Assembly: GCF_002934685.1 (NCBI RefSeq)
Contig: NZ_NKHL01000098.1
Location: 21,490-85,489 of the forward strand
DNA length: 64,000 bases
Source: Pseudomonas bohemica
Lineage (GTDB): Bacteria > Pseudomonadota > Gammaproteobacteria > Pseudomonadales > Pseudomonadaceae
Direction of reading: 5' to 3'
Positions 6,445 to 25,299 of this stretch are shown here, in pieces (the stretch's first letter is position 1; each line of letters starts with the position of its first letter). The notes under the pieces were generated by a model that was not told where the DNA came from, did no database searches, and saw nothing but the letters and a program-made list of their open reading frames with translations. The translations under genes were made by a program, and so were the position numbers.

Positions 6445-6494
6445 CTGTCGCTCCTATTGTCCTAAGCTGGCACCCCCTGAGTGGAGACTGCCGC

Positions 6495-7557: not shown

Positions 7558-7936
7558 ATAAAGGGCGAAGTTCAGCCTGATTTGAAAGGGTACGTTTGAT
7601 TCGCAGACCGCGGGCCTGCTGCATGCCGGACCAGCTCTTGACGATTCGGACATCAAACGCCACCACAAACCACTGTTGCCAGCAAGGTTTGAACAGCGTT
7701 ACGCAGCAAGCTTGCAGTGTGACTGGAAAAATCGGGGCGATTCAGCGTAGCCCTCGAAGGGGCGCAAAAGTTCCTCCAGAAACGGGCTCTGATTTGCAAG
7801 TCTGTATAAGGTTTTTATGATCCCGAAACCGCAAGAAATTGGTGGAGGTGAGGTAGCTTTTTAATTTGAAATTTCTCGGAAACCGTGGCCTTATGGCATA
7901 GGTGAGTTTACCTGTACACGCTCCGGGACATAGCTT
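7558..7936. other. 379-base intergenic region
   Basis: Lower-GC region with no protein-like reading frame and no clear terminator. It presumably contains the promoter of the gene at 7937. I see no recognisable operator. Confidence 0.4.
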
Positions 7937-8467: not shown

Positions 8468-8540
8468 CGTTTCGTTGTCTTCTCCCTTTGCTTGTACCGG
8501 CAGAGGGTTGCGAATACTCGGCGAGCCGCGTTCCTCATGG

Positions 8541-9299
8541 TCAATGAAGGCCTTTCTCCCAGGCTTTGTGGTTCTTCCGGGCATCTTGAATGAAGGGCGA
8601 CCACTGGATCAGTTTGAGCACGCATTTATTGAGTGCATTGCCCACCCGGTCGAGGGGGCGGTGGACGTCCAGGAACAGCACAACACGCACGCCGTCGGTG
8701 TCGTTCCAGACCTGATGGCGATAGGTGTCATCAAACACCATCAGGTTACCCGGCTCCCAATGACGGATCTCGTCCCCCACCTGAATACGGCAATTGGCTT
8801 TCGGTTCCGGGATGATCAAACCCAGATGGGCACGCAGCAAACCGTTGTATGGGCCGCGATGCGGCGGTATGTGCTTGCCGGGACTCAAGATGGAAAAGAA
8901 CGCCGTAAACATGCCGGGGATAGACTCGACAATTTGTGCGGTCTGCGGGCATTTGGCGCAGTTGCCATCCATCCTGTAACCATATCCGTGCAGGAAAAAG
9001 GTCTTCCACCGGTCATCTTGCGTCAGGTTGACCTGGTCTTTGGAAATGTCCTGAAAGTTAGGAATGCCGTCATGGTTTTTCAGTACGGCATTCAACTCGT
9101 CGACAATCACAGGCCACTTGGACTCCAGCATCTGCGCCCATTCGAACAGTGTCGGATCGAAAAACGGAGTGTTGCCAACCGTGGAGTGCCGGCGAATGAA
9201 CCGCTCAAGCTTTTTGATGATCCACAAGCCGACTGCAACGCTGGGACGATGTTTACGTTTGCCTTTTTTTTGTGGGGCTTTTGACGGCTCTGTTTGCAT
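8541..9299 (-). CDS. LpxO-like aspartyl/asparaginyl beta-hydroxylase family dioxygenase
   Basis: 252 residues. I start at the ATG at 9299, which has an AGGA site seven bases away and a 32-base gap to the previous gene; a longer version from 9365 lacks a ribosome site. It has the double-stranded beta-helix iron/2-oxoglutarate core: PPHRGPYNGLLRAHLGL supplies the first His, and FDDTYRHQVWN followed by RVVLFLD the distal His and Arg. In LpxO this family hydroxylates the alpha carbon of a lipid A acyl chain. As last gene of the leftward sphingolipid operon, it probably 2-hydroxylates the ceramide acyl chain. A lysine-rich N-terminal segment and one hydrophobic stretch suggest membrane association. 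Confidence 0.85.
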   Translation of the reverse strand: MQTEPSKAPQKKGKRKHRPSVAVGLWIIKKLERFIRRHSTVGNTPFFDPTLFEWAQMLESKWPVIVDELNAVLKNHDGIPNFQDISKDQVNLTQDDRWKTFFLHGYGYRMDGNCAKCPQTAQIVESIPGMFTAFFSILSPGKHIPPHRGPYNGLLRAHLGLIIPEPKANCRIQVGDEIRHWEPGNLMVFDDTYRHQVWNDTDGVRVVLFLDVHRPLDRVGNALNKCVLKLIQWSPFIQDARKNHKAWEKGLH

Positions 9300-9331
9300 G
9301 TCTGATCCTGACGGCAAGGTGTTTGAAATAC

Positions 9332-10297
9332 TTAGCGAAGCTGACGGTTTTTCAATAACCGCCATAACAGCGGCCAACAGAAGATGAGTGGATAACGACG
9401 CAGGCGCGCACTGACGACCACAGGTTCGCCAAGGTGGCGTTCGAGCTTCCAGATGACGTAATCCAGGCCGTTCTCGAAGGTGTAAAACGACTTGATCAGT
9501 CGCAACACGTTGAGTACTCGACCGGCAATCCTTCTGCGTTGCCACCGAACGGCATGCGATCTTGCCCGCGCATCTGCGGGCGATTGGGCGTATCGGTCAT
9601 CCTGCCCCTCGACAGGAGATAGCCTTGGCACAGACTGCACTGCGGCGCGGGTGATACTCGCGTAGTAGCTGACATCGTGCCGGACGATCTCCGCCGGCCG
9701 ACTGGCGCGCTCCGGGCGCAGCTCGGTGCGATAAGTCAGCGTCAGTGCGCGCTCCCACACGGCGGCGCTTTCGAGTACGTCCTGGTGGTCGGTCAAGGCT
9801 TCGGACATCATTTTCACGACGGCGTTGGCCAGGGCCATATGCACGCGGGCGCTGATGGTTTCATCGCGAGAAAAGACGAGCCGGGAAGGTTGCGAGAACC
9901 GTCCCCACAGATAACCGTGGAACCACGATGAAGTGCCCCTTTCGAAGTCCGATAGCGTAATCAGCGCGCATTTGGCCCGAACAGGCAAACCGTCCGGGGC
10001 GAACACGTTGATCGAGAAAACGGTAGGGGGCAGCCAGGCGTCCATCAGCTCCTTGAACTTGCTTGTCCGAACGTTGGCGTAGCTGTCCACCAACACATAA
10101 AGGTCGACCAGACCTTCTGAAAAATTACTGCTGCGCAAACACGACCCATATAAAAGAATGGCGCTGACGGCTTCACCAAATCGCGAGAGCAACTCATCGG
10201 TCAATGCCTTCAATGGATCAGCAACGGGGCGCGCGCATTCCTTTGACACAAGGTCAATCAGCACGCTGGATGTTGAAGTGGGGCAGGCCTGGTTCAC
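9332..10297 (-). CDS. Nucleotidyltransferase-fold protein in sphingolipid operon
   Basis: 321 residues starting at GTG 10297, with an AGAGG site six bases upstream and 12 bases after the lipid-kinase gene. The motif LLYGSCLR followed by GLVDLYVLVD is the Pol-beta-type nucleotidyltransferase signature (G-S ... D-x-x-V-x-V-D). The wider pattern resembles Tam41-type phosphatidate cytidylyltransferases. A C-terminal hydrophobic stretch precedes the end. Placed directly after a ceramide-kinase-like gene, it may activate the phosphorylated ceramide or head-group precursor with a nucleotide. That role is inference. The third catalytic carboxylate cannot be assigned with confidence by eye. Confidence 0.7.
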   Translation of the reverse strand: MNQACPTSTSSVLIDLVSKECARPVADPLKALTDELLSRFGEAVSAILLYGSCLRSSNFSEGLVDLYVLVDSYANVRTSKFKELMDAWLPPTVFSINVFAPDGLPVRAKCALITLSDFERGTSSWFHGYLWGRFSQPSRLVFSRDETISARVHMALANAVVKMMSEALTDHQDVLESAAVWERALTLTYRTELRPERASRPAEIVRHDVSYYASITRAAVQSVPRLSPVEGQDDRYAQSPADARARSHAVRWQRRRIAGRVLNVLRLIKSFYTFENGLDYVIWKLERHLGEPVVVSARLRRYPLIFCWPLLWRLLKNRQLR

Positions 10298-10309
10298 ATG
10301 CGGCCTCTC

Positions 10310-11344
10310 TTAAAAAATCACAAAACGAATGGAGGCGGTCGCCGATAACTCAAGCGGCCCTTGCGTGGAGAAAATCTCGCCGTCCAGCAGGTACTCGGTC
10401 AACCCTTCGATGGTGGTTTTGTTCAGGTTATGGCTGACGTAAGCCTGATCCTGGGTGATGGCCGGAGCGGTTTTGCCGCGCAACACATAAAACAGGGATC
10501 GCACCAGCTTGGGCGCCCGGTCGCTGATCGCAGTGAAATGGATCGGCGCTTTTTCGGTGCCCCAGTAGGGCGTGCTTCTGAGTAGCAGCGTGTCCAGGGT
10601 GGTCGCGAGAATGACCATCCATCTGGCGTTCAGCGTGTGCTGGGGAAGGTTCAGTCTGGCGGTAGTCGCAGACGCGAAAGGCAGACTTCGTTTCCAGAAC
10701 AGCGACACCAGCATCCTGCCGAATGCAAGCGAGGGCCCCAGAGCGCCACGCACGCCTGTGCCACGGACGTGGCTGTGAAAGTACCGGACACCTTCGACCA
10801 CTGCGCCGGCTCCGAAAAACAGACCGCATTGAGACTGCAGCGAGCCTGGGTCCGATACCTGAAGCGCGCTGCGCAATCTCGATGCGGGGGCCGACCGCGC
10901 ACCGCGACGCCAGTCATGCAGCGCCTGGAGCACCTTCAGTGGACGTTGCCGCACGCCCAGATCACGCGCGCTCATGTTGGTGGTGCCTGCCGGGACAATG
11001 AGGACATTTGGCCAGGTGGTCGGCTGCAACTGGATCAGCGCCGTCAAGGCCGCCTGCAGACTGCCATCGCCTCCGACCACGACCAGCAGATCCTTCGGTT
11101 CGAGTGCGAAGGACACGATCGCTGCGCTGATTTGCGCCGGTGTTGAGGCTTCAACAATGCAGGCATCGGAAAGCTGGGCGACGAGGTGTCTGAATTTCGT
11201 CAGATGGCGACGCACGTATCCGCCCTTGGGATTGAGCACTACGCCAATTCTCTGCGCGGAAGCGGCTTGATCATCAATCATCGTTACGACGGCCTGCAAA
11301 GAATTCGGAGCAATGGCTTGGGGGTTGGAAAGAGCAATGGCCAT
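10310..11344 (-). CDS. Diacylglycerol-kinase-family lipid kinase, likely ceramide kinase (CpgB-like)
   Basis: 344 residues from ATG 11344, 7 bases after the LptG-like stop. It carries the hallmarks of the DAGK catalytic family: VLNPKGGYVRRH near the N-terminus, nucleotide-binding VVVGGDGSLQAA (usually GGDGT), the VPAGTTNMSARDLG loop, and a late LLDGEIF containing the conserved Asp-Gly-Glu. Bacterial and eukaryotic ceramide and sphingosine kinases belong to this family. In Caulobacter the homologous step makes ceramide 1-phosphate on the way to ceramide phosphoglycerate. The operon context points to ceramide rather than diacylglycerol as substrate. Confidence 0.82.
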   Translation of the reverse strand: MAIALSNPQAIAPNSLQAVVTMIDDQAASAQRIGVVLNPKGGYVRRHLTKFRHLVAQLSDACIVEASTPAQISAAIVSFALEPKDLLVVVGGDGSLQAALTALIQLQPTTWPNVLIVPAGTTNMSARDLGVRQRPLKVLQALHDWRRGARSAPASRLRSALQVSDPGSLQSQCGLFFGAGAVVEGVRYFHSHVRGTGVRGALGPSLAFGRMLVSLFWKRSLPFASATTARLNLPQHTLNARWMVILATTLDTLLLRSTPYWGTEKAPIHFTAISDRAPKLVRSLFYVLRGKTAPAITQDQAYVSHNLNKTTIEGLTEYLLDGEIFSTQGPLELSATASIRFVIF

Positions 11345-11351
11345 GTCAGTG

Positions 11352-12431
11352 TCACGCCGCTCGATCGAATCGGTAGACCAGCCACAAGGCGACAGCCAGG
11401 AGCACAAGCGAGGGAGCCAGCGTCGTGAGCATCACGTTGCCGTTGAGCAACAGGCCAAGATTGGCCACGATCTGATTGGTTACATAGATCAGAAGTCCCA
11501 CGACAGCGCCGATGGCCAGGCGGCCGCCCAGCCCCGGGGAGCGTTGCTGGACGAACGTGAAGGGCACCGCGAAGAGAATCATGGCCAGGGTCAGGATGGG
11601 CCTCCCCAGTTTCTGCCACATGGCCATTTCGTACTCGCCAGTGGGCTGGTCGGATCCATTGAGAAAGAGGATGTAGTGATGCAGTTGCTGGACAGAAAAA
11701 CTGTCGGTGGGCAGCGACAGATCTCTCAGGCGACGGTCAGAGAACACCGCGTCCCACACCATCTGATCCTGTTCGCGCACCGTCTCCTCGTCCTGGCCCC
11801 ACTCCTTGATCCGCGGGTGGTTGAGCAACCACGAGCCGTCGGGCCGCACTTCTGCGCTGTCCGCAAAAATATAGGAGGACAGGCGCAGGTCAGAGGTGAG
11901 CCGGAAGATTTCCACGTTGAGCGGGGTGTTGTGGCGTCCCATCGCGCCTATTCGTGCAACTTCATTGCCGCGACGCGCCCAGATGCTTCCGGTCGGTTTG
12001 GCGGCTTCGCCAGAAATGGCCAGCGCTGCGTTGCGGATCTGCACGCTGCGTTGCTGAAGCGGTGACGCAACCCACTCGTCGATGGCGCCCAGCGCGACCA
12101 CTACGATCAGGCCCGCCGCCATGGTCGTGATGGCAATGCGCAAAATGGAGACCCCCGCCGCACGCATTGCCGTCAGCTCTTGAGTCAACGCCAGTTGCCC
12201 GAGCCCGGTGATACCTCCTAGCAGGGCGATGAAAGGCCCCAGATCCACAGCGCGGCGGGGCAGCGTCATCACGACGACTTCGACAGCCTGAGTCCATCGA
12301 TAGCCTCCGGAGGTCACGTCATCGAGCTCCGCGATGAGATCGAATGTGGTGAACAGCGGCAGCAGCAACAACGCAGCTGCAGCGAATCCGACCAGCACAT
12401 TGCGTATCAGGTAGAAACTGATCCTTCTCAT
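11352..12431 (-). CDS. LptG-like permease (YjgP/YjgQ family), sphingolipid operon paralogue
   Basis: 359 residues, starting within ATGA shared with the LptF-like stop (4-base overlap 12428-12431). It has three N-terminal membrane helices with the conserved GGITGLGQLALTQELTAMRAAG coupling region, a periplasmic beta-jellyroll and three C-terminal helices, which is the full family length. LptF/LptG with LptB2 extract lipopolysaccharide from the inner membrane. This pair sits among lipid-synthesis genes with no lptA, lptB or lptC beside it, so it is probably a second, dedicated permease that sends the sphingolipid to the outer membrane using a shared or distant ATPase. Confidence 0.85.
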   Translation of the reverse strand: MRRISFYLIRNVLVGFAAAALLLLPLFTTFDLIAELDDVTSGGYRWTQAVEVVVMTLPRRAVDLGPFIALLGGITGLGQLALTQELTAMRAAGVSILRIAITTMAAGLIVVVALGAIDEWVASPLQQRSVQIRNAALAISGEAAKPTGSIWARRGNEVARIGAMGRHNTPLNVEIFRLTSDLRLSSYIFADSAEVRPDGSWLLNHPRIKEWGQDEETVREQDQMVWDAVFSDRRLRDLSLPTDSFSVQQLHHYILFLNGSDQPTGEYEMAMWQKLGRPILTLAMILFAVPFTFVQQRSPGLGGRLAIGAVVGLLIYVTNQIVANLGLLLNGNVMLTTLAPSLVLLAVALWLVYRFDRAA

Positions 12432-13504
12432 TTGAGACGCCGACGCAAAAGTGACAGGTCTCTGATCAGAAACGCCAGTAATGCAACGCTCATGACCAGC
12501 GGAATCAGCCACACGCCTGGAGTAAGAGGAATAACGGCGTTGCCGACCAGTGTTCTGCAAATGTTGCCGGCATAGAAGATCACCGCAAAAACCAGCGCGA
12601 CGGGGAGGAGCGTCGAAAAGCGCCCTTTGCGCGGCGCGGTTCTGCTAAGCGGTACCGCAAGCAGGGCGAGGAGCATTGCGCTGATACCACGCGTTTCACG
12701 CCACTGGAGTTCAGCCTTATCCTGAGGTTGCGCCGAAATACTCAGCATCGCTGTGGAGGTGGATTTTCGCTTGTTGTCAGGCTCCAGCTCCAAGGGCTTC
12801 AGTTGCAGCAGCAGCTTGTTGTTGAAGGTGTTCACGACGTCCCTGGAGTCCTGATGATCCAAGGTGTATGAGCTGCCTTGTGTAAGTTCAACCACCGGTG
12901 CGGCAGGATTGGCATCGATGACTTTCGCGGAATGAGCTCGAAAAATTCGGGATTTGCCCTCGGCCGGGTCGTAGATCAGGGTTTCACTGAGATCACCTGA
13001 TTGCTTGTTGATGGATTCGGCGAGGATCATCCGACCGTTGTCCGGGTTCAGGTTGAATCGTTGGGGAAGAAGGTGACTGACGTCCAGATCGGTTTTGGAC
13101 TGCTGTTCCAGTTGGTAGCTCTGCGTGTACGCCCAGGGGCGTCCGTAGACGGACAGTACCGTCACGGCGATGGCGACAGGCAGCGAGATCAGGGCAATTG
13201 CCTTATAAAGACGTGCAGGGCTGCTCCCCGAGGCGAAAATGGCGGTAATTTCCGAGTCGTGATAAAGCCTGCCCAATGCCATCGCCACGGATGTGTAGAG
13301 AGCGACGGGAACCAACATTTCGAGACCAATGATGACCTTGTACATCACCATGTCCGCCACGGACTGCAACGCGAGCGTGCCATTTGTGGCCTGTGTCAAA
13401 TAACGTTCTGCGGAGTAGCTTGCGAAAATGAAGGTCAGGATGCTGACCATGATGGTCACAGGGCGACGAATCTCGGCAATGATGTAACGTTCGATCAGAC
13501 CCAT
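12428..13504 (-). CDS. LptF-like permease (YjgP/YjgQ family), sphingolipid operon paralogue
   Basis: 358 residues. Start ATG 13504 has GGGA about eight bases upstream. The protein begins MGLIERYIIAEIRRP, the standard LptF amphipathic entry, then membrane helices flanking a YHDSEITAIFASG coupling loop, a large periplasmic domain with an FRAHSAKVI-type strand, and three C-terminal helices. It overlaps the LptG-like gene by four bases, as expected for a co-translated heterodimer. The housekeeping lptFG genes of Pseudomonas lie elsewhere next to a leucyl aminopeptidase, which is absent here, so this is a paralogous pair. Confidence 0.85.
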   Translation of the reverse strand: MGLIERYIIAEIRRPVTIMVSILTFIFASYSAERYLTQATNGTLALQSVADMVMYKVIIGLEMLVPVALYTSVAMALGRLYHDSEITAIFASGSSPARLYKAIALISLPVAIAVTVLSVYGRPWAYTQSYQLEQQSKTDLDVSHLLPQRFNLNPDNGRMILAESINKQSGDLSETLIYDPAEGKSRIFRAHSAKVIDANPAAPVVELTQGSSYTLDHQDSRDVVNTFNNKLLLQLKPLELEPDNKRKSTSTAMLSISAQPQDKAELQWRETRGISAMLLALLAVPLSRTAPRKGRFSTLLPVALVFAVIFYAGNICRTLVGNAVIPLTPGVWLIPLVMSVALLAFLIRDLSLLRRRLK

Positions 13505-13568
13505 TGCGTTGTTCCCGCAGGCTGGCGACTGCTCGTTGTTCTGGATGAATGCGCGAGCCTGGCGGTTT

Positions 13569-14411
13569 TCAAATGGATGCTCGCTGCCGGAGCGTTTTCT
13601 CGACAAGTATGAAGTCGTCAACGGTGTCGATATCAACGGCTGCGTCGGCAAACGGCATGATCACCGCGCCCACACGAACGCCCACTGCACGTGACATGCG
13701 TTGCATGGCCTGATCCAGGCTTAAGGTTCCGAGCAGATATCTGAGGGTTGAAGTAAAACCCAGCGCGCCCATGACGGTTCTTTTAGGATTTTTACGACGC
13801 TGCTCGATGTCTTTCCAAAAGTCGGCGACCTTTGCGCTTTCCTCCGTCATGAAGGCGAACAGGTTGCTGCCGCAGAAAGGCCCGCCTTTGAGTTTGATCG
13901 CTGTCCGTCTGTTGTCCGGGAATTTGGCCAATACGGTGGCAAGTGGCGTCAAGGCCACAGTCACGTCGCATCCGCTCATCTGGGAGCGTTCAAGAAAGTA
14001 ATCGACAATCTCCGATTGCAGCAGAGCGTGATCGGCAGTCGTTACGAGTACCGGGCGTGTTCGAATGTGCGTCAATCCGCGATAGGCGCTTTGACTCGGT
14101 GACGCCGCAGGCTCAAGCATCGACAGCGCCCCGCAAGCGATCATGTCGCGCATCGTCGAGTCACCATCAAGCATCCGGCTGCCTGGGCCGACCAGCGTAA
14201 TGTCCGATACATGCCTTGAGCCCTGTAATGCGCTCACTACCCGATAAAGCATCGGTAGGCCGTGTACGGGGGTCAACGCCTTGCAGCCCGCTTCACCCAA
14301 TGCGGCTACAGGGTCCCCCGGATGTCTGTCACCTGCAAGGATCAGCGCCGAGAATCGAGCCAGCTCAGATGTGCTTTTCATAGAGCCGGTACCGCTTATA
14401 GGCTTTAGCAC
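13569..14411 (-). CDS. MobA-like NTP transferase in sphingolipid operon
   Basis: 280 residues using the GTG at 14411, which has a GGAG site seven bases before it and lies inside the ceramide-synthase gene. An ATG at 14381 is the alternative. The nucleotide-binding start ALILAGDRHPGDP ... KALTPVHGLPMLYRV is the LAGG-x-G/K-x-L-x-P pattern of sugar and alcohol nucleotidyltransferases, with VLVTTADHALL as the metal-binding Asp region. It probably makes a CDP- or NDP-activated head group (glycerol, glycerate or sugar type) to be joined to ceramide phosphate. The Caulobacter ceramide phosphoglycerate locus also contains a nucleotidyltransferase. The substrate is inferred. Confidence 0.78.
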   Translation of the reverse strand: MLKPISGTGSMKSTSELARFSALILAGDRHPGDPVAALGEAGCKALTPVHGLPMLYRVVSALQGSRHVSDITLVGPGSRMLDGDSTMRDMIACGALSMLEPAASPSQSAYRGLTHIRTRPVLVTTADHALLQSEIVDYFLERSQMSGCDVTVALTPLATVLAKFPDNRRTAIKLKGGPFCGSNLFAFMTEESAKVADFWKDIEQRRKNPKRTVMGALGFTSTLRYLLGTLSLDQAMQRMSRAVGVRVGAVIMPFADAAVDIDTVDDFILVEKTLRQRASI

Positions 14412-15507
14412 CTATGCGCTCCAGAATCCCACGCATTCCGGCGTTCGTTTCGAGGATCCAGGACATTTCCAGGGCCTCAATATTGCGCCGGACAAAAGGG
14501 GCTTTCAGTGCTTCGATGAGCAGTAATGCCAGGACTGGGCCTTGTCGGCTGAACTGATATTGCTGCCTGACACCCATCAATGGCACGCGTGCGGTACGTG
14601 TTCCGGAAACTTTCAGCTTCCAGATCAAACGCAGCCAACCGAACGGCAGCAATCGTCCTTTCAGGGGAGCGATAGCCTCATGAATATTGGGCATGGCTAC
14701 GATGAATGCACACGGTTCGTCGTTGATTTCAGCAATATAAATAAGGTCACTTGGAACGAGAAACTTCAACTGCTTACCAAGCTCGGAAAATTCATGCTCG
14801 GTAAAAGGGACGTATCCCCAGTTATTGGCCCAGGCATCGTTGAATATCTGCCTCAGGATTTGCATTTCTGCGTCAAACTTACTCTTATCGATCGGCCGAA
14901 TCCGGATCACCGATCTTTCTCTGTCCATCATTTTTTTTAGCGGGGCCGGAAAATCGAGCTCTTCGGTACGCATCCAGTAAGCGATCAAATCCATCGCAGG
15001 TTCGTAGTTCGAACCCAACACGTGATTTTCATAATAGGGATGGTTGTGATTCATGAACGCGGACGGCGGTGTATCAAACCCGTCGATTAAAAGGCCGCTC
15101 TCTTGATTGATATTCAGAGTGAAAGGCCCCGTAATCCGCTTGGCTTCTTGATCCCTAAGCCAGTGCTCGGCAGTGGCAATCAACACGGCAAAGACTTCAG
15201 GCTCGTCGATGGCGTCGAGCATGCCGAAGTGACCCGTGTCGGCTCCGTGCAAGTCCCGATGTAGAGCGTCTACCTGGGCGAGGATGCGACCTATCACCGC
15301 ACCATCACGTCTTGCGAGCCAGGCTTGCCACTTGACATGCCCTGACGCAGGGTTCTTGTCTGAGAGGTGCTCTTGCCTTTCGACCCGCAGCGGTTCGATC
15401 CAATAGGGGTCGTTTTTATAGAGCATCCCGGGAAAGGTTATGAATTCGTTCAGCAACTGCCGATTTTCTACTGCCTCAATGGTAATCAGGTTGTTCGTGT
15501 TATTCAT
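14365..15507 (-). CDS. cerS: Bacterial ceramide synthase, GNAT-like N-acyltransferase (bCerS)
   Basis: 380 residues of the GNAT-superfamily proteins (sometimes annotated as N-acetyltransferase) shown in Caulobacter to N-acylate the sphingoid base. Visible features are two GNAT-like halves, a central NINQESGLLIDGFDTPP segment with HPYYE, and the FNDAWANNWGYVPFTEHEF block near residue 225 characteristic of this family. It ends ILERIGAKAYKRYRLYEKHI. It is the first gene of the leftward operon and directly faces the acyl-ligase operon across 371 bases. It condenses an acyl-CoA or acyl-ACP with 3-ketosphinganine or sphinganine. Recognition rests on family pattern plus context. Confidence 0.82.
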   Translation of the reverse strand: MNNTNNLITIEAVENRQLLNEFITFPGMLYKNDPYWIEPLRVERQEHLSDKNPASGHVKWQAWLARRDGAVIGRILAQVDALHRDLHGADTGHFGMLDAIDEPEVFAVLIATAEHWLRDQEAKRITGPFTLNINQESGLLIDGFDTPPSAFMNHNHPYYENHVLGSNYEPAMDLIAYWMRTEELDFPAPLKKMMDRERSVIRIRPIDKSKFDAEMQILRQIFNDAWANNWGYVPFTEHEFSELGKQLKFLVPSDLIYIAEINDEPCAFIVAMPNIHEAIAPLKGRLLPFGWLRLIWKLKVSGTRTARVPLMGVRQQYQFSRQGPVLALLLIEALKAPFVRRNIEALEMSWILETNAGMRGILERIGAKAYKRYRLYEKHI

Positions 15508-15878
15508 TGGCCTGCAGGTCTTCTAGGCAAAATGGTGAACGGTGAAGCCTGATTTCCAAATTTGAGCTAGGTATCCGGCGACGACCCCGGACTATCGCTG
15601 AAATATTTTGTTACGTCTACCCACCCTCATCAATGTGCAGTATCGATCAATTTGATAGTAACTCTCGATCTACAAGGCTGTAGTCTCTTGCGGAAGCTGT
15701 GGCAGCCTGTTTTTGAATATGGCTTGGGTTGGTGAGCCAATATTCTGCTCGAAATGATACCTGACCATGATCAGGCGTCCTTGATCCGGCTGTCCCTACG
15801 AACCTTGCCTTCCGCGTATACAGCAGCGTCTGCGCACCAAGCGCCAGTTGTCGTAGAACCTGATTAGAGTCCAACTTA
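15508..15878. promoter_or_regulatory. Divergent control region of the two sphingolipid operons
   Basis: 371 bases between the two opposing operons, with lower GC than the flanks and no convincing protein gene. It must hold the promoters for both operons. It contains an imperfect palindrome CCTGACCATGATCAGG near 15760-15776 and AT-rich stretches near 15595-15660 and 15710-15760. No regulator gene is encoded within the locus, so control is probably by a host regulator. The exact -10 and -35 boxes cannot be assigned by eye. Confidence 0.6.
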
Positions 15879-17630: not shown

Positions 17631-18541
17631 CGCCGCTAACGATCGCCCTGACCGGAGGAAGCGGGTTTATCGGCGGTCAGATTGCAAGGATGCTCGTGGC
17701 TCGCGGCGCTCATGTGCGCGCACTTAGCAGGACTCAATCCGGGCTGGAGAACGGCATCCTGTGGATCAAAGGCACACTCGAGGACGAGGATTCGCTTGCA
17801 AGGCTGGTTGAAGGGGCGAGCATCGTCATTCACTGCGCGGGGGCGGTTCGAGGGCGAAGTGCCCGTAGTTTCCAGATTGCAAATGTGCAAGGCAGTCGTC
17901 GTGTCGCACAAGCGGCTTGCAATTCCGGCACCTGCGAGCGCTTTCTGTTGATGTCGTCGCTTGCAGCCCGCCATCCGGAGCTCTCCTGGTACGCAAAATC
18001 CAAGCATGATGCCGAGCAGGAAGTCCTCCGGGTAGCGGGAACCATGGGGATAACCATCTTCAGGCCTACTGCCGTCTATGGCCCCGGCGATCGTGAATTG
18101 CGGCCTCTGTTTACATGGTTGCTCAAGGGGCTTTTGGTCAGACTCGGCGCACGCGATTCGCATCTGAGTTTTGTGCATGTCTTTGACCTTGTAGCGGCAG
18201 TTGCCCACTGGTTGGGATCGCCGATTACAAAGTCGGCCATCTACGAGATCAGTGACGGCACGCTGGGCGGATACAGCTGGAAAGGTCTGGCAAAAATCGC
18301 GGCTGATATCCGTGCGGCTCCAGTTCGATCGCTTGCCATATCCACGACTGTTCTCAGAACGATTGCCTGCGCAAATTTCGCGATTTCTTACATGGTGCGC
18401 AGGGCTCCCATGCTGACTACCAGCAAAGTCAACGAACTCACACACCCTGACTGGACATGCAGCAACACTGCGATCACGGTCGCAACGGGTTGGATTCCTC
18501 AAATCAAGTTGCGGCGTGCTCTGCAGGAAGGTTTGTTTTGA
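17627..18541 (+). CDS. cerR: NAD(P)-dependent epimerase/dehydratase family ceramide reductase-like protein (CerR-like)
   Basis: 304 residues, extended short-chain dehydrogenase. The Rossmann motif is TGGSGFIGG at the N-terminus (residues 9-17), with a serine-containing SSLAARHPELSWYAKSK stretch giving the Tyr-x-x-x-Lys catalytic pair. Then comes a substrate strand FRPTAVYGPGD and HVFDLVAAV. In the Caulobacter pathway the equivalent CerR reduces the keto group of oxidised ceramide. Four-base overlap with the acyl-ligase gene and 34 bases to the ACP place it firmly in the operon. A homologous sugar epimerase would look similar; context decides. Confidence 0.82.
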   Translation: MTPLTIALTGGSGFIGGQIARMLVARGAHVRALSRTQSGLENGILWIKGTLEDEDSLARLVEGASIVIHCAGAVRGRSARSFQIANVQGSRRVAQAACNSGTCERFLLMSSLAARHPELSWYAKSKHDAEQEVLRVAGTMGITIFRPTAVYGPGDRELRPLFTWLLKGLLVRLGARDSHLSFVHVFDLVAAVAHWLGSPITKSAIYEISDGTLGGYSWKGLAKIAADIRAAPVRSLAISTTVLRTIACANFAISYMVRRAPMLTTSKVNELTHPDWTCSNTAITVATGWIPQIKLRRALQEGLF

Positions 18542-18575
18542 ACGTGTGCGAATTCGCGCGCTAACGAGGCTGAAT

Positions 18576-18836
18576 ATGTTTACGCAAGATGTGATTCTGG
18601 AAAATGTACTGGTGTGTCTTCGCGACATGATTCCGGGTGCAGAGACGGTAGGCCCGGATAGCGACATGGTCGACGACCTTGGCCTTGAGTCGGTCAAGAT
18701 GATGGACCTGTTGATGAAGCTTGAGGACGATTATGACCTGTCGATTCCGATCAACATCCTGATGGACGTTCGCACCCCGAGACAACTCGCTGCGTCTCTG
18801 ATTGGCTACCTGGAGAAACGTAATGGGCCTGTATGA
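18576..18836 (+). CDS. acpR: Dedicated acyl carrier protein for sphingolipid synthesis (AcpR-like)
   Basis: 86 residues. A four-helix ACP with the phosphopantetheine attachment motif DDLGLESVKMMDL; the Ser is at about residue 39. GAGG lies eight bases before the ATG. It overlaps the serine palmitoyltransferase gene by 14 bases. It differs from the housekeeping AcpP (no DSLDTVE sequence). Its position between the acyl ligase and the C-C-condensing enzyme implies that it carries the long-chain acyl group used to acylate serine. Confidence 0.88.
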   Translation: MFTQDVILENVLVCLRDMIPGAETVGPDSDMVDDLGLESVKMMDLLMKLEDDYDLSIPINILMDVRTPRQLAASLIGYLEKRNGPV

Positions 18837-20016
18837 CAAGTTTTCCCGCCTGGCAGCCGAACGCTCCAGCCTGCAGTCGCTTGACCCCAGTCCCTTTGGC
18901 ACTCGGATAGACGTCGTATACTCATCGACGCGCGGGCGCATTGGTGGAACCGATGTAATTCTGGCCGGCACCAATAACTACCTGGGCCTCACGTTCGATG
19001 AGGACGCTATCGAAGCCGCGCGGCACGCATTGACGGTAGAAGGTACGGGCACCACCGGTTCCCGCATGGCCAATGGCAGCTATGGTAGTCATTCGGCGCT
19101 TGAATCCGAGTTAGCCACATTCCTCAATCGACCATCGGTCATGGTTTTTTCAACCGGTTACGTGGCCAATCTGGGCATTATCGGAACGCTGGCCGGCCCG
19201 CGCGAAGTGGTGCTGCTCGACGCCGATTGTCACGCGAGTATCTATGATGCATGCACCTTGGGTGGGGCGGAAATCATCCGTTTTCACCACAACGATGCCA
19301 AAGATCTTGAGCGCCGCATGCTGCGTCTGGGCGATCGGGCCAAGGATGCACTGATCATCGTGGAGGGCATCTATAGCATGCTCGGCGACGTTGCTCCGCT
19401 AAAGGAAATCGTGGACGTAAAACGCCGTCTCGGTGGCTTCCTGCTCGTCGACGAGGCGCACTCGTTCGGTGTCATGGGGGCTAACGGGCGAGGGCTGGCA
19501 GAGGAGCAGGACGTAGAAGATGATGTGGATATCATCCTGGGAACCTTCAGCAAAAGCCTGGCAGCTATCGGTGGTTTTGCGGCGGGCCGCAGCAGTGAGA
19601 TGGAAGTGCTGCGCTACGCCAGCCGTCCCTATATTTTCACGGCGTCACCATCACCCTCTGTCGTGGCATCCGTAAGATCAGCGTTGAAGACCATTGCTGC
19701 TCGCCCACAACTGCGCGAGAAACTCTGGAGTAACGCACAAAGGTTGTATGACGGCCTGGCGGCGCTGGGCTATTCGATGGGGCCGCGTGTGAGTCCTGTT
19801 GTCCCGGTGATGGTAGGGAGCAAAGAGCAGGGAGTGAAGTTTTGGCGAGCGCTGATCGATCAGGGTGTGTACGTCAATCTGGTGCTTCCACCGGCCACGC
19901 CGTCGGGCGTCACGCTGGTTCGCTGCAGTGTCAGCGCAGCTCATACGTCCGTGCAAATTGATCAGATCATCGAAGCCTTCGCAGCTCTGCGACCATCGCT
20001 GAAGCTTACGGCCTGA
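18823..20016 (+). CDS. spt: Serine palmitoyltransferase-type alpha-oxoamine synthase
   Basis: 397 residues, PLP fold-type I. Visible are TNNYLGLTF at about 50-58, DCHASIYDA with the PLP-stacking His137, DEAHSFGVMG with Asp210 and His213, and TFSKSLAAIGGFAAG with the Schiff-base Lys244. AONS, KBL, ALAS and SPT share this fold. Neither a biotin operon nor a threonine dehydrogenase is nearby, while an acyl ligase, ACP, ceramide reductase and ceramide synthase are. It is therefore assigned as the enzyme condensing serine with acyl-ACP to make 3-ketosphinganine. The start at 18823 overlaps the ACP gene. Cytosolic, probably dimeric. Confidence 0.87.
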   Translation: MGLYDKFSRLAAERSSLQSLDPSPFGTRIDVVYSSTRGRIGGTDVILAGTNNYLGLTFDEDAIEAARHALTVEGTGTTGSRMANGSYGSHSALESELATFLNRPSVMVFSTGYVANLGIIGTLAGPREVVLLDADCHASIYDACTLGGAEIIRFHHNDAKDLERRMLRLGDRAKDALIIVEGIYSMLGDVAPLKEIVDVKRRLGGFLLVDEAHSFGVMGANGRGLAEEQDVEDDVDIILGTFSKSLAAIGGFAAGRSSEMEVLRYASRPYIFTASPSPSVVASVRSALKTIAARPQLREKLWSNAQRLYDGLAALGYSMGPRVSPVVPVMVGSKEQGVKFWRALIDQGVYVNLVLPPATPSGVTLVRCSVSAAHTSVQIDQIIEAFAALRPSLKLTA

Positions 20017-20095
20017 GGGTGTGGAGCGCAGACGGCGGTTGTAGCGCAGGGCCGTGCCTTGCGTTGCAGAGAACCTTGTATCCAATGTGAGTGTT

Positions 20096-21820
20096 ATGCG
20101 AATTATTTTTGCTTTTGGTCGTTCGTATCCAATACGAACGGCACTGATGCTGCTAAGCCTTGTTGTCGCGGGGCTGGTTGAGAGTGTCAGCCTGACGACC
20201 ATGCTGCCCTTGATGTCGGTGATGCTGGGCGACAACGCGCACTCTACGTTTGGCGCCCTTGTCGGTAACGTGCTTCAGTCTGCTGGGTTGGAACCCACGA
20301 TCATTACGCTGCTGATCATTATCGTCGTGGGCATGGCGATCAGCAGTCTTCTGATTCTGCTCGCCAACCGCCAGGTCGGCTATACCGTTGCGCATGTCGC
20401 GACCGACCTGCGGGTGGATTTGATCAATGCGACTTTGGGCAGTCGCTGGGAATACTATCTGCGTCAACCGGGTGGAGCGTTGGCTAACGCAGTAGCGACC
20501 GAAGCCTACCGAGCATCGACCGCTTATGAGCATGCCGCCAACATGGTTGCGCTGTCCATCCAGGCGATTGCCTATGGTGTCATTGCGCTGTTCGTCTCTT
20601 GGCAAGCTGCGTTGGTGTGCCTGTGCGTCGGCGTGGTAATCCTGTTCGCGCTCCGCGGACTGGTCAAAACGTCTCGCAAAGCGGGCAAAGGCCAGACAAG
20701 CCTGATGCGCGAGTTACTGATCAGCCTCAGCGATACGCTGGGGTCAGTCAAACCGTTGAAAGCAATGGCTCGGGAGGATATTGCCGATTCGTTGTTGCGC
20801 CATCAGGCCGCAGAACTTAATGGGGCGATGGAGAAAGAGGTTACCAGTCGCGAAACCCTGCGGGCGCTGCAGGAGCCTTTGCTGGCCATCCTCGCGGCGG
20901 CCGGTCTTTATGCAGGCCTGGTCATCTGGAAGCTGCCGCTGTCATCGGTCATGGTGCTCATCTTCATGGTGGTGCGAGTTCTGGGTCTCATGCATAAGGC
21001 GCAGCAGCGCTATCACCGCATGGCAGCTCAGGAGAGTGCATTCTGGGCATTGCGTGAAGCAGTCGTGACAGCCAAGGCCGAAGCCGAGCCCGTTGGCGGC
21101 ACCGTGCAACCAACCCTCAGCAACCGGATCGAGTTTCAGAACGTCACCTTTACCTACGGTGAGCGCAAAGTCCTGAACAACACCTCACTGGCCTTCGACG
21201 TCGGAACAATGACGACGCTCGTGGGGCCGTCCGGAGCGGGGAAAACCACAATCCTCGACCTGGTGTGTGCACTGCTGAACCCTCAACAAGGGCGAGTGCT
21301 CATTGATGGTGTCGCGCTTGCTGAGCTTGATCGCCGTAAGTGGCGTCGCATGATTGGTTATGTGACGCAAGAGACACTGCTGCTGCATGACACCGTGCTG
21401 GCGAATGTCACCTTGGGTGAGCCTGCCTTGACCGAAGCGGACGCCGAGCGCGCGTTGCGCCAGGCAGGTGCATGGGAGTTTGTCTCGCAACTCCCCCACG
21501 GCCTGCTGTCGGTCGTGGGCGAGCGGGGTGGCAAGCTGTCGGGCGGTCAGCGGCAACGAATAGTCATCGCGCGTGCACTGGCTCACCGGCCTCAACTGCT
21601 CATCCTCGATGAAGCGACCAGCGCGCTGGACCCGGAAGCCGAGAAAGGTATCTGTGAGTCGCTGAAGGCCCTGGCGCCGGAAATTACCATCATTGCCGTT
21701 TCGCATCGTCCAGGACTAATCGACATTGCTGACGAAATCATCGAGCTGAGGGACGGCGAAATCAGGCGACTGAAAAACCGTACTTACCTGGCGACCGACG
21801 TTTCAAATACGCAAGCCTGA
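20096..21820 (+). CDS. Type I ABC exporter, MsbA-like half-transporter
   Basis: About 574 residues. The N-terminal half has six membrane helices and the C-terminal ATPase has Walker A VGPSGAGKTT, signature LSGGQRQR and Walker B LLILDEATSALD. The start is chosen at ATG 20096; an upstream in-frame Met at 20054 is possible. This half-size architecture dimerises and often flips lipids, as MsbA does with lipid A. Its place after the sphingolipid synthesis genes suggests that it flips the finished phospho-sphingolipid across the inner membrane for handover to the LptF/G-like pair. Linker length and sequence are not those of the housekeeping MsbA. Confidence 0.85.
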   Translation: MRIIFAFGRSYPIRTALMLLSLVVAGLVESVSLTTMLPLMSVMLGDNAHSTFGALVGNVLQSAGLEPTIITLLIIIVVGMAISSLLILLANRQVGYTVAHVATDLRVDLINATLGSRWEYYLRQPGGALANAVATEAYRASTAYEHAANMVALSIQAIAYGVIALFVSWQAALVCLCVGVVILFALRGLVKTSRKAGKGQTSLMRELLISLSDTLGSVKPLKAMAREDIADSLLRHQAAELNGAMEKEVTSRETLRALQEPLLAILAAAGLYAGLVIWKLPLSSVMVLIFMVVRVLGLMHKAQQRYHRMAAQESAFWALREAVVTAKAEAEPVGGTVQPTLSNRIEFQNVTFTYGERKVLNNTSLAFDVGTMTTLVGPSGAGKTTILDLVCALLNPQQGRVLIDGVALAELDRRKWRRMIGYVTQETLLLHDTVLANVTLGEPALTEADAERALRQAGAWEFVSQLPHGLLSVVGERGGKLSGGQRQRIVIARALAHRPQLLILDEATSALDPEAEKGICESLKALAPEITIIAVSHRPGLIDIADEIIELRDGEIRRLKNRTYLATDVSNTQA

Positions 21821-21863
21821 CGCTGCAGCTCGTTTCTTCTCACTCGTACAAGATGGCCCGACG

Positions 21864-22670
21864 ATGTCCTCGACCTATACCAATCAGCAAGCACCTGCGC
21901 CGGATCATCGAATGGATCGATCCGTTGAAGCCCAGAATCTAGAACGCCCGCAGCGCTCGGACAGTCGAGGACAGAAACTTGGGCCGTTGATCGCCTTTGT
22001 GGGATGTGACGGCTCCGGCAAATCAACGGTGTCCGAGGCAATCCTCAACTGGCTGAGTGAATCGCAGGCGGTGCAAAGCTGCCATTTGGGCATTCAGTCG
22101 AAACAAATCGGTGAGAGATTGGTGAGGTTGCCGTTGGTAGGCAAGTCGATCGGTCGCCTGATCGCCGCCAATTCGCCACGCGGCAATAAGCAGCACGCGC
22201 AACAGACAAAAGGCCCGAGCACATTGGCGGCTCTGGCGATATTCCTGTTGTCGGTACGCCGTTATCGTCGCTACGAGAAGATGATGAAACTGCGACGCCA
22301 GGGGATCACGGTAATCGCCGATCGTTTTCCACAAATTGCGGTCGCCAATATGAAGATCGATGGCCCGGGGCTGCTGGCTGCCAAACACCGCAATGGGTTG
22401 ATTCGCTTTCTTGCCTGGCGCGAGAAAAAACTCTACGACTACATGATCAGCTACCGCCCGGTTCTGGTGGTTCGGTTGAACGTGGATGTGGAAACCGCTT
22501 TTGCGCGCAAACCTGATCATCGCTACGAATCGTTGGCGCTCAAGATCGCCAATGTCCCCAAGCTTGAATACCAGGGAGCGCCGATTCTGGATCTGGATAG
22601 CCGGTTGCCCCTCGAAGAGGTGATTGCGCAAGCCAAGGCCGCAGTGTCTCGCAGCCTTGCAGAACGGTAG
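21864..22670 (+). CDS. P-loop kinase, thymidylate-kinase-like (paralogue 1)
   Basis: 268 residues. P-loop GCDGSGKST at 47-55, an acceptor-side motif IADRFPQIAV around 152, and an arginine-rich LSVRRYRRYEKM helix that could be a lid. It belongs to the thymidylate-kinase-like superfamily, but the length and the long N-terminal extension rule out an ordinary Tmk. The next gene is a paralogue with the same motifs. In this operon a nucleotide, sugar or lipid head-group kinase role is conceivable. The substrate is unknown and I know no characterised counterpart. Confidence 0.7.
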   Translation: MSSTYTNQQAPAPDHRMDRSVEAQNLERPQRSDSRGQKLGPLIAFVGCDGSGKSTVSEAILNWLSESQAVQSCHLGIQSKQIGERLVRLPLVGKSIGRLIAANSPRGNKQHAQQTKGPSTLAALAIFLLSVRRYRRYEKMMKLRRQGITVIADRFPQIAVANMKIDGPGLLAAKHRNGLIRFLAWREKKLYDYMISYRPVLVVRLNVDVETAFARKPDHRYESLALKIANVPKLEYQGAPILDLDSRLPLEEVIAQAKAAVSRSLAER

Positions 22671-22677
22671 GGGATGG

Positions 22678-23445
22678 ATGGCTAACGTGCGCTCCCTGTT
22701 CGGCACTCAGTCCGCGAGAGCCAAGCGTTCTCTGGCGCCACTTGTGGCCATTATTGGGTCCGACGGCGCTGGAAAAACCACAGTGGCCGAGCACTTATGC
22801 TCGGCTTGGGCAAGCGAGGGCGCTGCCTATGCATACCTGGGATTGGGCACTGGGGCCATAGGGCTGAAAATTCAGGCCTGGCCGTTGATTGGGCCCGCCG
22901 TCAGTCGAAGATTGGCGGCCAAGGCGACGCAGGCTCGTACCAAAGGCGAGAAAATCCCCGGGGTCTTCACGGCGTTGATCATCTACGGCTTCTCGCTGCT
23001 GCGTGTCCGTCGTTTCAATCAGATGCAAGCTCTACGTAACGGGGCCTCAGTCGTCATTTGCGACAGGTATCCCCAGGTAGATGTGCCGGGGTTCTACGAT
23101 GGCCCCGGTCTCAATGCATCAACACCTTCCGGCCGCGTTACGGCATGGCTGGCGAAGCGGGAGTTTGCCCTTTACCAGCAGATGGTCAGCCATCTGCCGA
23201 CGCTGGTCATTCGATTGAACATCGACACTGAAACGGCATTTTCCCGTAAGCCCGACCACAACCTTTCATTGCTGCGACAGAAGGTACAAGCGACATCTTC
23301 GCTACGTTTCAATAACGCGAAAATCATCGACGTGGATGCCAGCCAGCCGCTAGAGCGTGTGCAGGCCATATGCGCCCAACTGATACGTCAGTTGCTCACC
23401 AATCAGCAAAGCGATCTCACCCAAACGCCAAAGCACAATATTTGA
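22678..23445 (+). CDS. P-loop kinase, thymidylate-kinase-like (paralogue 2)
   Basis: 255 residues starting 8 bases after the previous stop, with GGGGA as ribosome site. P-loop GSDGAGKTT at 27-35, VICDRYPQVDVPG in place of the DR motif, then DGPGLNAS, LAKREFALYQQM and VIRLNIDTETAFSRKPDH, each paralleled in the preceding protein (DGPGLLAA, LAWREKKLYDYM, VVRLNVDVETAFARKPDH). The two are clearly tandem duplicates that diverged. They may act as a heterodimer or on two substrates. Function is unknown; the link to sphingolipids is by operon only. Confidence 0.7.
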   Translation: MANVRSLFGTQSARAKRSLAPLVAIIGSDGAGKTTVAEHLCSAWASEGAAYAYLGLGTGAIGLKIQAWPLIGPAVSRRLAAKATQARTKGEKIPGVFTALIIYGFSLLRVRRFNQMQALRNGASVVICDRYPQVDVPGFYDGPGLNASTPSGRVTAWLAKREFALYQQMVSHLPTLVIRLNIDTETAFSRKPDHNLSLLRQKVQATSSLRFNNAKIIDVDASQPLERVQAICAQLIRQLLTNQQSDLTQTPKHNI

Positions 23446-23550
23446 AGCGTTCAGACGCGCTTTATCTCAATGACCCCGCGTCGTTGCATCACAGGGTTCG
23501 GTGCCTGAAGGTCTGCCGCGCTCACGCAGAGCGTTTTAATCGAGGATGTT

Positions 23551-25299
23551 ATGAAAGCTAAAGTCTCGCCACCTGCTACACCGAACCGAACAGGTTGGGC
23601 GCACCTGGGCTGGGCCTACCTGTTTTTTTGGTATTTCTCGGGGGTCACACAGCTTCTCATCATTCGAGCCGGCGTTGCAGGCTGGAAGGGGATGATCCAG
23701 GCGTCGATGGTCACGCTACTGTGGCTGGTTCCCCTGATCCTGTTTCCGGCCCGTGCGAGGATCCTGTCGGGTGTAATCGGTCTTGTTCTCTGGGCGTCCT
23801 CATTGACGGGGCTGGGTTATTTCCTGATCTACGGGCAGGAGTTTTCTCAAAGCGTGATTTTCATCATGTTCGACTCGAACATGCAGGAGTCGACCGAGTA
23901 CCTGGGGCATTATTTTTCCTGGTCGATCGTGGCAGCGATCGTTGCGTACAGCTTGGGCGGCCTGCTGTTGTGGACGCGGGTCAAGCCGGTGTATTTGCCC
24001 CGCAAGGCGCTTGTTACATGCTGCGTTCTGTTCATCGCTGTGGGTGTTGCCTTCAATGCGATCAATCAATACCGCAAGCGTGCGACCATTCAGCTGGCTG
24101 CGGCAAAATTCGAAGAAAACATCGAAGCAGCGGCTCTTTGGCAGATGGTGGTCGGCTATCACCAGTATCGTCAGCAACTCGCCGAAATGTCGAAGATGAT
24201 GGCGACCCAGGCGCAAATACCTCCGCTGAAAAACCTCACCGATGTCCATGCGGGACAGCGCTCCACACTGGTATTGGTTATTGGCGAATCAACGAACCGG
24301 GAGCGTATGAGTCTCTACGGTTACGATCGCCCAACGACGCCGAATCTGGATCAACTGCGTGGCCAGTTGCAGGTATTCAACCAAGTCGTAGCGCCGCGTC
24401 CCTACACGATCGAGACGCTCCAGCAACTGCTGACATTTGCAGACGAAGAGCATCCGGATCGCTACCTGAGTACCCCAACGTTGATCAGCGTGATGAAGCA
24501 GGCCGGTTACAAGACGTTCTGGATTACCAACCAGCAGACCATGACCAAGCGCAACACGATGCTGACGCTATTTTCCCAGCAGGCGGATGAGCAGACATAT
24601 CTGAACAATAACCGCGATCAGAACGAAACCAGTCAGTACGATGGGGATGTGCTCGATCCGTTCTCCAAAGTGCTGGAGGACGACGCGCCACGCAAACTGA
24701 TCGTGGTTCACCTGTTGGGCACGCACATGAGCTACAAGTATCGCTATCCGCCGACTTACGATTACTTCAAGGATCGTGTTGGTGTGCCAGCAAATGTCAC
24801 TGAAGGCCAGCTGGCTGTCTATAACAGCTACGACAACGCGGTGCGTTACAACGACTATGTCGTCTCTTCGCTGATCAAGCGTTTTAGCGACACGGATCCC
24901 AACGGTTTCCTGCTCTACCTTTCCGATCACGGCGAATCGGTATACGACCCAGTAGCACCGCAGGTGTTGGGGCGTAATGAGGCAGCGCCCACCCGGCCGA
25001 TGTACACGGTGCCCTTCATCGTTTGGAAGTCACCCAGCTGGAAAGCAGCACAGGGGACGACCCTTGAGCCAGCAGACTATCTGGCACGCCCCTACAGTAC
25101 ATCGCATTTCATTCACACCTGGACTGATCTGGCAGGGTTACGTTTTGATGAGTTCGAGCCAAATAGAAGCATCGCTAATGCAGGATATAAGCCTGAACCT
25201 CTGTTGATCGGCAATCCGCACAGTCCTGGCAGTCTGAGGGACTTCAGTCAGCTTCCTGCCACACCCGTGCAAAGCGTCGTTGCACAAGGCGTACAGTAG
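23551..25299 (+). CDS. Phosphoethanolamine-transferase-like (EptA/CptA superfamily) membrane enzyme
   Basis: 582 residues. Five N-terminal hydrophobic helices fall within the first 170 residues. A periplasmic alkaline-phosphatase-superfamily domain follows, with the nucleophile motif IGESTNRERMSLYGYDR around 244-260, a central HLLGTHMSY and a late LSDHGESVYD metal-binding segment. These match CptA-type transferases that move phosphoethanolamine from phosphatidylethanolamine to envelope glycolipids. It is the last gene of the rightward operon, 105 bases after the kinases, so the acceptor may be the exported sphingolipid head group. Lipid A or core sugar are alternatives. Confidence 0.8.
   Translation: MKAKVSPPATPNRTGWAHLGWAYLFFWYFSGVTQLLIIRAGVAGWKGMIQASMVTLLWLVPLILFPARARILSGVIGLVLWASSLTGLGYFLIYGQEFSQSVIFIMFDSNMQESTEYLGHYFSWSIVAAIVAYSLGGLLLWTRVKPVYLPRKALVTCCVLFIAVGVAFNAINQYRKRATIQLAAAKFEENIEAAALWQMVVGYHQYRQQLAEMSKMMATQAQIPPLKNLTDVHAGQRSTLVLVIGESTNRERMSLYGYDRPTTPNLDQLRGQLQVFNQVVAPRPYTIETLQQLLTFADEEHPDRYLSTPTLISVMKQAGYKTFWITNQQTMTKRNTMLTLFSQQADEQTYLNNNRDQNETSQYDGDVLDPFSKVLEDDAPRKLIVVHLLGTHMSYKYRYPPTYDYFKDRVGVPANVTEGQLAVYNSYDNAVRYNDYVVSSLIKRFSDTDPNGFLLYLSDHGESVYDPVAPQVLGRNEAAPTRPMYTVPFIVWKSPSWKAAQGTTLEPADYLARPYSTSHFIHTWTDLAGLRFDEFEPNRSIANAGYKPEPLLIGNPHSPGSLRDFSQLPATPVQSVVAQGVQ

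Follow-up and report, generated by a model that had tools for sequence, protein, structure and literature searches.

A 64-kb stretch of the Pseudomonas bohemica genome (the window) carries, at positions 8541–25299, a sphingolipid locus of 15 uninterrupted genes organized in two divergent runs, one on the minus strand (15507 to 8541) and one on the plus strand (15879 to 25299). A cassette of two YghR/S/T-family kinases and a CptA-like phosphoethanolamine transferase sets the locus apart. The gene content, the protein families, the predicted folds of two proteins, the phylogeny and the lack of a CpgA match in the genome were established here. On balance, we favor a complete island predicted to build ceramide, phosphorylate and activate it, add (phospho)glycerate and a likely phosphoethanolamine cap, and likely move the lipid to the outer membrane. 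It could also represent, as a more tentative proposal, a third, hybrid class of proteobacterial sphingolipid with Tam41-fold-derived cytidine diphosphate (CDP)-ceramide, a head group phosphorylated by YghR/S/T-family kinases, a phosphoethanolamine cap from a dedicated CptA paralogue, and its own ABC flippase and second Lpt permease.

Families were assigned by Pfam and NCBIfam profile searches (Table 1), and all genes named in the initial annotation are present as uninterrupted frames in the two runs. Its gene content was right, but several starts lie further inside the long open reading frames, probably at 18823 for serine palmitoyltransferase (SPT), 18576 for AcpR, 22678 for kinase B and 12431 for LptG. 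The genes are tightly packed, and internal stops are absent from all 16 frames when the neighbor at 7937 is counted in. Chance is excluded as the source of the gene order because the same order recurs in many genomes.

All five genes of the Caulobacter-type ceramide set (spt, acpR, aasR, cerR and cerS) are present, with acpR and aasR near spt. The cerS product, bCerS, has no match in Pfam or NCBIfam and was recognized by its 63% identity to E. coli YghO. The best PDB matches of the window SPT are serine palmitoyltransferases, and the AONS, KBL and ALAS models that match it all score below their own cut-offs. A tree of 116 rows was built by a quick method with SH-aLRT (approximate likelihood ratio test) support and no bootstrap, leaving out L024 and L028 (near-duplicates of L029 and E. 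coli) and frames shorter than 330 residues. The window SPT falls inside a 95-row SPT clade (SH-aLRT 100, stem branch 2.09), with E. coli Kbl and BioF outside. An AONS/KBL identity was rejected on the NF047599 score, compared with those of the AONS/KBL models, and on this tree; the SPT claim of the initial annotation thus withstood the tree check proposed for it. In two Nitrospiraceae loci (L089:13967 and L105:4998), spt has within a few kb a further alpha-oxoamine-synthase-like gene, whose divergent product falls outside the SPT clade.

CpgB- and CpgC-type homologues lie in the expected neighborhood, and with the five ceramide genes they bear out the earlier claim of a Caulobacter-type ceramide and phosphosphingolipid locus. 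The chemistry proposed at that time is plausible. The CpgC-like protein has no match in Pfam or NCBIfam and none in the PDB by sequence search up to E 1; its predicted fold is that of a Tam41-type CDP-diacylglycerol synthase. The protein likely produces CDP-ceramide. This activity of CpgC is suggested in the accessible text of PMC11324152, and the mechanism is called unidentified in PMC12275187 and PMC13228409.

The genome differs from Caulobacter in the later head-group steps. A CpgA (CDP-alcohol phosphotransferase) query had no match in the genome at E 1e-3; it had matches in 12 of 20 genomes or records, with the window genome among the eight without. A convincing CpgD (phosphoglycerate cytidylyltransferase) was likewise not found in the genome, the best match reaching 35% identity over 114 of 262 residues (E 2.7e-12), as against 49–74% for the CpgD-like counterparts in other spt loci. 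The query itself is CpgD-like by family, and its PDB matches include 4JD0, the homologue named for CpgD in PMC12275187. With neither CpgA nor a convincing CpgD in the genome, addition of a second phosphoglycerate, as in Caulobacter ceramide phosphoglycerate (CPG) 2, is not expected.

Kinases A and B are relatives of E. coli YghR/S/T, and kinase A has a thymidylate-kinase fold. Enzymes of this fold phosphorylate phosphates, although the fold by itself does not reveal the substrate; the CptA family is described for the lipopolysaccharide (LPS) core. The locus transferase is 75–82% identical to its counterparts in four other genomes and 58% to a second CptA elsewhere in the genome; that second copy is 77–78% identical to those of P. 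umsongensis, P. serbica and strains Root562 and KK4. G037, G486 and G487 carry both kinases along with the transferase, and G485 very likely does so too, with a contig break in between.

Relatives of the locus were surveyed by mapping 32 query proteins onto 91 spt loci, in which four locus types stand out. Type 1, the CPG2 type (P. luteola, A. beijerinckii, pBYT5-2 and others), has CpgA- and/or CpgD-like genes. The enterobacterial type 2 has YghQ, YghR, YghS, YghT, a YtfJ-family gene and often a small DgkA. Type 3, on a P. veronii plasmid, has YghR/S/T-like kinases and a DAGK-type kinase without the nucleotidyltransferase genes nt1 and nt2. Type 4, the window type, has nt1, DAGK and nt2, followed by kinases A and B and the CptA-like transferase; its members are the window, G037, the metagenome-assembled genome (MAG) UBA8181 (L048) and P. 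mandelii 6A1 (L049). No other locus among the 91 combines kinases with nt1 and nt2. L047 (from G485) is a mosaic, with YghR/S and no nt1/nt2 on its left as in type 3 and kinase A on its right, where kinase B and the transferase very likely continue across the contig break.

Several gene pairs never co-occur in the 91 loci as seen, although the p values ignore shared ancestry and cut-off flanks: kinases and CpgA/CpgD-type genes (kinases only 33, CpgA/CpgD only 27, neither 31; p 4e-7), ABC exporter and MOP-type flippase (35, 30 and 26; p 7e-9), and CpgB-type kinase and small DgkA (19, 16 and 56; p 0.02). The LpxO/OlsC-like and sterol-desaturase-type hydroxylases are also never together (8, 11 and 72), without significance (p 0.59). 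At the genome level, CpgA occurs in 12 of 20 and the kinases in 11 of 20; all eight genomes without CpgA have kinases (p 0.0014), and three (G486, G494 and G495) have both. An absolute exclusion of kinases and CpgA therefore holds in the 91 loci as seen and fails in the genomes, where replacement of CpgA by the kinases is strong but not absolute.

Besides the limits of these p values, a number of observations weigh against the proposed pathway and its hybrid head group. Flanks of at most 10 kb on each side are visible in 80 of the 91 loci, and the 20 genomes or records were chosen from loci already collected, three being plasmid records only. The alpha-proteobacterial loci used for orthology are only 25–33% alike, the Caulobacter proteins themselves not being among those compared. 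G486, a MAG with a window-type locus, does encode CpgA, on a contig end; in the Pseudomonadaceae MAG G494, CpgA accompanies both kinases; and Azotobacter beijerinckii (G495) has relatives of kinase A and the transferase (68% each) plus CpgA. L047 carries the kinase A end yet no nt1/nt2 in the stretch seen. The CC_1153-type gene, needed for CPG2 in Caulobacter according to the accessible text of PMC11324152, is kept in the window although CpgA and CpgD are absent. Finally, the transferase scores 846 bits with the CptA domain model NF012179, below its cut-off of 900. The A. beijerinckii kinase relatives and the 68% transferase relative lie on contigs C129 and C49, and its CpgA on C126.

One alternative is an unremarkable CPG/CPG2 locus like that of P. 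luteola, with the CpgA and CpgD steps carried out by unrelated enzymes encoded elsewhere and with kinase and transferase genes that hitch-hike or act on LPS. Retention of the CpgB-, CpgC- and CC_1153-type genes would fit such a locus, as would the four CDP-alcohol phosphatidyltransferase family proteins encoded in the genome and the link of the CptA family to the LPS core. We consider it rather unlikely, given that the CpgA query found nothing in the genome, that a second CptA is already present, and that the kinases and transferase are kept together in other genomes.

About equally improbable, in our judgment, is a role for kinase A or B as a further kinase of ceramide or ceramide-1-phosphate, for instance forming a pyrophosphate, and not of the glycerate head group. 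The thymidylate-kinase fold, with its phosphorylation of phosphates, suits this role; enterobacterial loci have YghR/S/T without CpgC- and CC_1153-type genes, and the E. coli locus lacks a CpgB- or CpgC-like gene, so that YghR/S/T might have to act on ceramide there. In the window, however, kinases A and B share the locus with a retained CpgB-type kinase, and a small DgkA-type gene in many enterobacterial loci (16 of the 91 loci) could supply ceramide-1-phosphate. This small gene, mostly beside cerS, was seen in L026, L027, L050, L056, L057, L059–L063, L067, L068, L070, L073, L107 and L076, one of which is a beta-proteobacterial MAG; it occurs where the CpgB-type kinase was not seen. It is possibly a second, unrelated ceramide kinase.

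The pathway favored here, a ceramide phosphoglycerate with a kinase- and CptA-modified head group, would proceed as follows; its catalytic steps in the organism, their order and the final lipid are what we infer from the genes. AasR would load a fatty acid onto AcpR, SPT would join the AcpR-bound acyl group to serine, and N-acylation by bCerS with reduction by CerR would give (dihydro)ceramide, whose acyl chain the LpxO/OlsC-like enzyme, a predicted N-acyl-chain hydroxylase, would hydroxylate. The CpgB-like kinase would form ceramide-1-phosphate and the CpgC-like protein, likely, CDP-ceramide, to which glycerate would be joined to yield CPG. Instead of receiving a second phosphoglycerate, the head group would be phosphorylated on the cytoplasmic side by kinases A and B. 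Flipping of the lipid by the ABC exporter would be followed by transfer of phosphoethanolamine to the new phosphate on the periplasmic side, catalyzed by the CptA-like enzyme, and the product would enter an Lpt bridge through LptF2/LptG2.

For the export genes, the genome holds a separate LptF/LptG pair on contig C106, 27–29% alike to the locus pair, and the locus pair is therefore an extra copy. Basic cavity residues were compared as possible markers of a preference for LPS over sphingolipid. Among the E. coli LptG lysine positions, K34 is not conserved even in the genome's other LptG, so nothing follows from them; LptF position 30 is K or R in the two LPS copies and S or T in all 15 second copies. 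The ABC exporter is predicted from its domains to be a lipid flippase. Second LptF/LptG copies are proposed to carry phosphosphingolipids in the accessible text of PMC11324152.

The Caulobacter crescentus locus CC_1168–CC_1152 (PMC12275187, PMC10331486 and the available portion of PMC11324152) shares with the window SPT, AcpR, AasR, CerR and bCerS as well as the CpgB-type kinase, the CpgC-type protein, the CC_1153-type nucleotidyltransferase and LptF2/LptG2. The window locus lacks CpgA-, CpgD- and CC_1158-type genes and, unlike that of Caulobacter, has the YghR/S/T-type kinases, the CptA-like transferase, the ABC exporter and the LpxO/OlsC-like hydroxylase. P. luteola (L052) and A. beijerinckii (L082) have a contiguous cluster with a divergent core order and an ABC exporter as in the window; within the stretch seen, they differ by having CpgA- and CpgD-type genes and by lacking the kinase/CptA cassette. 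The closest SPTs in the tree (83%) are on the Pseudomonas plasmids pBYT5-2 and pPNP1, which share the left arm (nt1, DAGK, LptG/F, nt2, hydroxylase and an RloA-like gene); they differ in having CpgA on both, a CpgD-like gene seen in pBYT5-2, and neither the kinases nor the phosphoethanolamine transferase. In P. fluorescens MYb115, SgaAB also yields sphingolipids, but by a polyketide-synthase route from a different two-gene cluster (PMC12134224, as far as its text is accessible).

The E. coli ygh-spt locus (strain D8, L023) resembles the window in its ceramide set (51–71% alike), LptF/G pair and YghR/S/T-family kinases. It differs by a YghQ flippase, a YtfJ-family gene and three kinases, and lacks CpgB-, CpgC-, CC_1153- and CptA-like genes. 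The genes of E. coli BL21 have been described and its SPT tested (PMC9386255, accessible text), and the available part of PMC9278758 lists YghR/S/T as uncharacterized ATP-binding proteins among screened mutants. K-12 MG1655 (L021, 3129043–3134823) keeps yghO, yghQ, yghR, yghS and yghT, with IS5 between yghO and yghQ; at that position D8 has acyl ligase, SDR, acyl carrier protein, spt, lptG/lptF and YtfJ-type genes. From this comparison, the K-12 ygh genes look like a deletion remnant of a sphingolipid locus.

Sphingolipid loci are not confined to relatives of the window, an idea rejected by matches in E. coli, plasmids and contigs. The window spt has a DNA match in 4056 of 5426 complete E. coli genomes, at least 80% covered in 4039, and the ten listed matches are annotated spt genes of about 70% identity. 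Eight plasmid-collection records, two of them chromosome-sized, have an SPT of at least 60% protein identity. A search of genome contigs with an SPT alignment gave at least 584 stretches encoding relatives, not necessarily all SPT, the best 80 of which were used; Pseudomonas among these best 80 are mandelii, asuensis, luteola, serbica, umsongensis, strains Root562 and KK4, and two MAGs, or twelve in total with three plasmid records added. Plasmid-borne spt loci are L024, L029 and L025 (Pseudomonas), L026 and L027 (Klebsiella, Rahnella) and L030 (Roseomonas mucosa); L026 and L029 are typed as conjugative. The initial annotation had called the lipid unexpected in Pseudomonas. This does not hold, since contiguous clusters in P. 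luteola and Azotobacter vinelandii, with horizontal transfer proposed, are already described in the accessible text of PMC11324152; yet such loci are uncommon, the SPT cut-off being exceeded in two of 59 same-genus genomes, its own counted in. The surprise of the locus is smaller than claimed, and its main interest lies in a head-group cassette of hybrid make-up and in what the locus hints about CpgC and YghR/S/T. The initial annotation had overlooked the gaps at CpgA and CpgD, the kinship of the two kinases with YghR/S/T, and the distinctive kinase and transferase cassette.

The island was likely acquired horizontally. A LysR gene, a small gene at 6495 and a helicase gene at 25631 have the same order in the eight relatives examined, taken from 18 same-genus relatives with the helicase; in these eight, the gap from small gene to helicase is 2.1–7.1 kb as against 18.8 kb in the window. 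The other Pseudomonas loci compared lack these flanks in the stretch seen; L055 has a 56% relative of the gene at 41075. GC content is 56.4% in the island and 59.3% in the rest of the window, third-position GC is 0.58–0.69 in 15 of 16 genes versus 0.72–0.82 in 13 neighbors (LptG, at 0.749, overlaps the core range), and codon fit is below that of the neighbors. No direct or inverted exact 11-mers common to the island edges (6401–8560 versus 25241–25700) were found. This composition, and the rarity of the SPT in the genus, would also fit a reading in which the cluster were decaying or silent after transfer and made no lipid. That is very unlikely in view of the intact frames with their expected motifs, the tight packing and the 57–83% identity to homologues in the pBYT5-2 locus.

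In the SPT tree, the enterobacterial proteins nest beside those of Pseudomonas, and their sister is the copy on the P. veronii plasmid. Such nesting is consistent with a transfer between Pseudomonas and enterobacteria, in a direction that we infer, in which head-group genes were swapped step by step. The kinase tree was built without eight loci (L026, L028, L062, L064, L070, L071, L074 and L081). The P. veronii plasmid (L025) also has a highly divergent extra YghT-like kinase adjoining another gene (19096–19791 and 19799–20647), the latter 32% related to an 825-bp hypothetical gene of the E. coli ygh locus.

Table 1. Features of the sphingolipid locus and its left neighbor in window coordinates.
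Feature	Position	Strand	Evidence or remark
Retropepsin-like protease, RloA3/Zn_protease family	7937..8467	+	NF052264 143 bits, below cut-off 210; PF05618; locus membership uncertain
LpxO/OlsC-like aspartyl/asparaginyl beta-hydroxylase family enzyme	8541..9365	-	PF05118 183 bits; OlsC model 267 bits, below cut-off 450
CpgC-like nucleotidyltransferase (CC_1161 type)	9332..10297	-	Predicted CDP-ceramide synthase
CpgB-like ceramide kinase	10310..11344	-	DAGK_cat; GGDGS motif
LptG2 (second LptG copy)	11352..12431	-	TIGR04408 291.7 bits, above cut-off 240
LptF2 (second LptF copy)	12428..13504	-	TIGR04407 283.1 bits, above cut-off 230
MobA/CofC-like nucleotidyltransferase (CC_1153 type)	13569..14381	-	PF12804; adjoins cerS in other loci
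bCerS, bacterial ceramide synthase, YghO-like N-acyltransferase	14365..15507	-	63% to E. coli YghO, 74% to pBYT5-2
Divergent intergenic region separating the two runs	15508..15878		
AasR, fatty acyl-AMP ligase type acyl-AcpR synthetase	15879..17630	+	NF006624 819 bits, cut-off 600; YTSGST motif
CerR, SDR-type ceramide reductase	17627..18541	+	PF01370; 50–69% to gamma-proteobacterial loci, 32% to Roseomonas
AcpR, dedicated acyl carrier protein	18576..18836	+	PF00550
SPT, serine palmitoyltransferase	18823..20016	+	NF047599 622 bits, cut-off 500; TFSKS motif
ABC exporter, predicted lipid flippase	20096..21820	+	PF00005, PF00664; 82% in pBYT5-2 locus
Kinase A, YghR/S/T family	21864..22670	+	Thymidylate-kinase fold
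Kinase B, YghR/S/T family	22678..23445	+	41–42% to K-12 YghR/S/T; kinase tree
CptA-like phosphoethanolamine transferase, locus-specific copy	23551..25299	+	NF007933 840 bits, cut-off 404

Homologues of the LpxO/OlsC-like hydroxylase occur in 8 of the 91 spt loci, the window counted in. Relatives of the retropepsin-like gene lie beside three other Pseudomonas spt loci (L024:5134–5667, L029:6057–6590 and L025:4184–4690).

Among the papers listed in searches of the open-access literature, with subscription journals mostly outside it, none describes the kinase/CptA variant or assigns a function to YghR/S/T, and CDP-ceramide formation by CpgC goes no further than what the accessible text of PMC11324152 suggests. 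The locus points to experimentally checkable functions for CpgC and YghR/S/T. If the hybrid class is real, it would link the Caulobacter CPG2 locus to the unexplained E. coli ygh genes, and E. coli YghR/S/T would be sphingolipid head-group kinases. Capping an otherwise anionic lipid of the outer membrane with phosphoethanolamine would have consequences for envelope charge and for the binding of polymyxin-type peptides. More generally, bacterial sphingolipid loci seem to exchange their head-group genes as cassettes.

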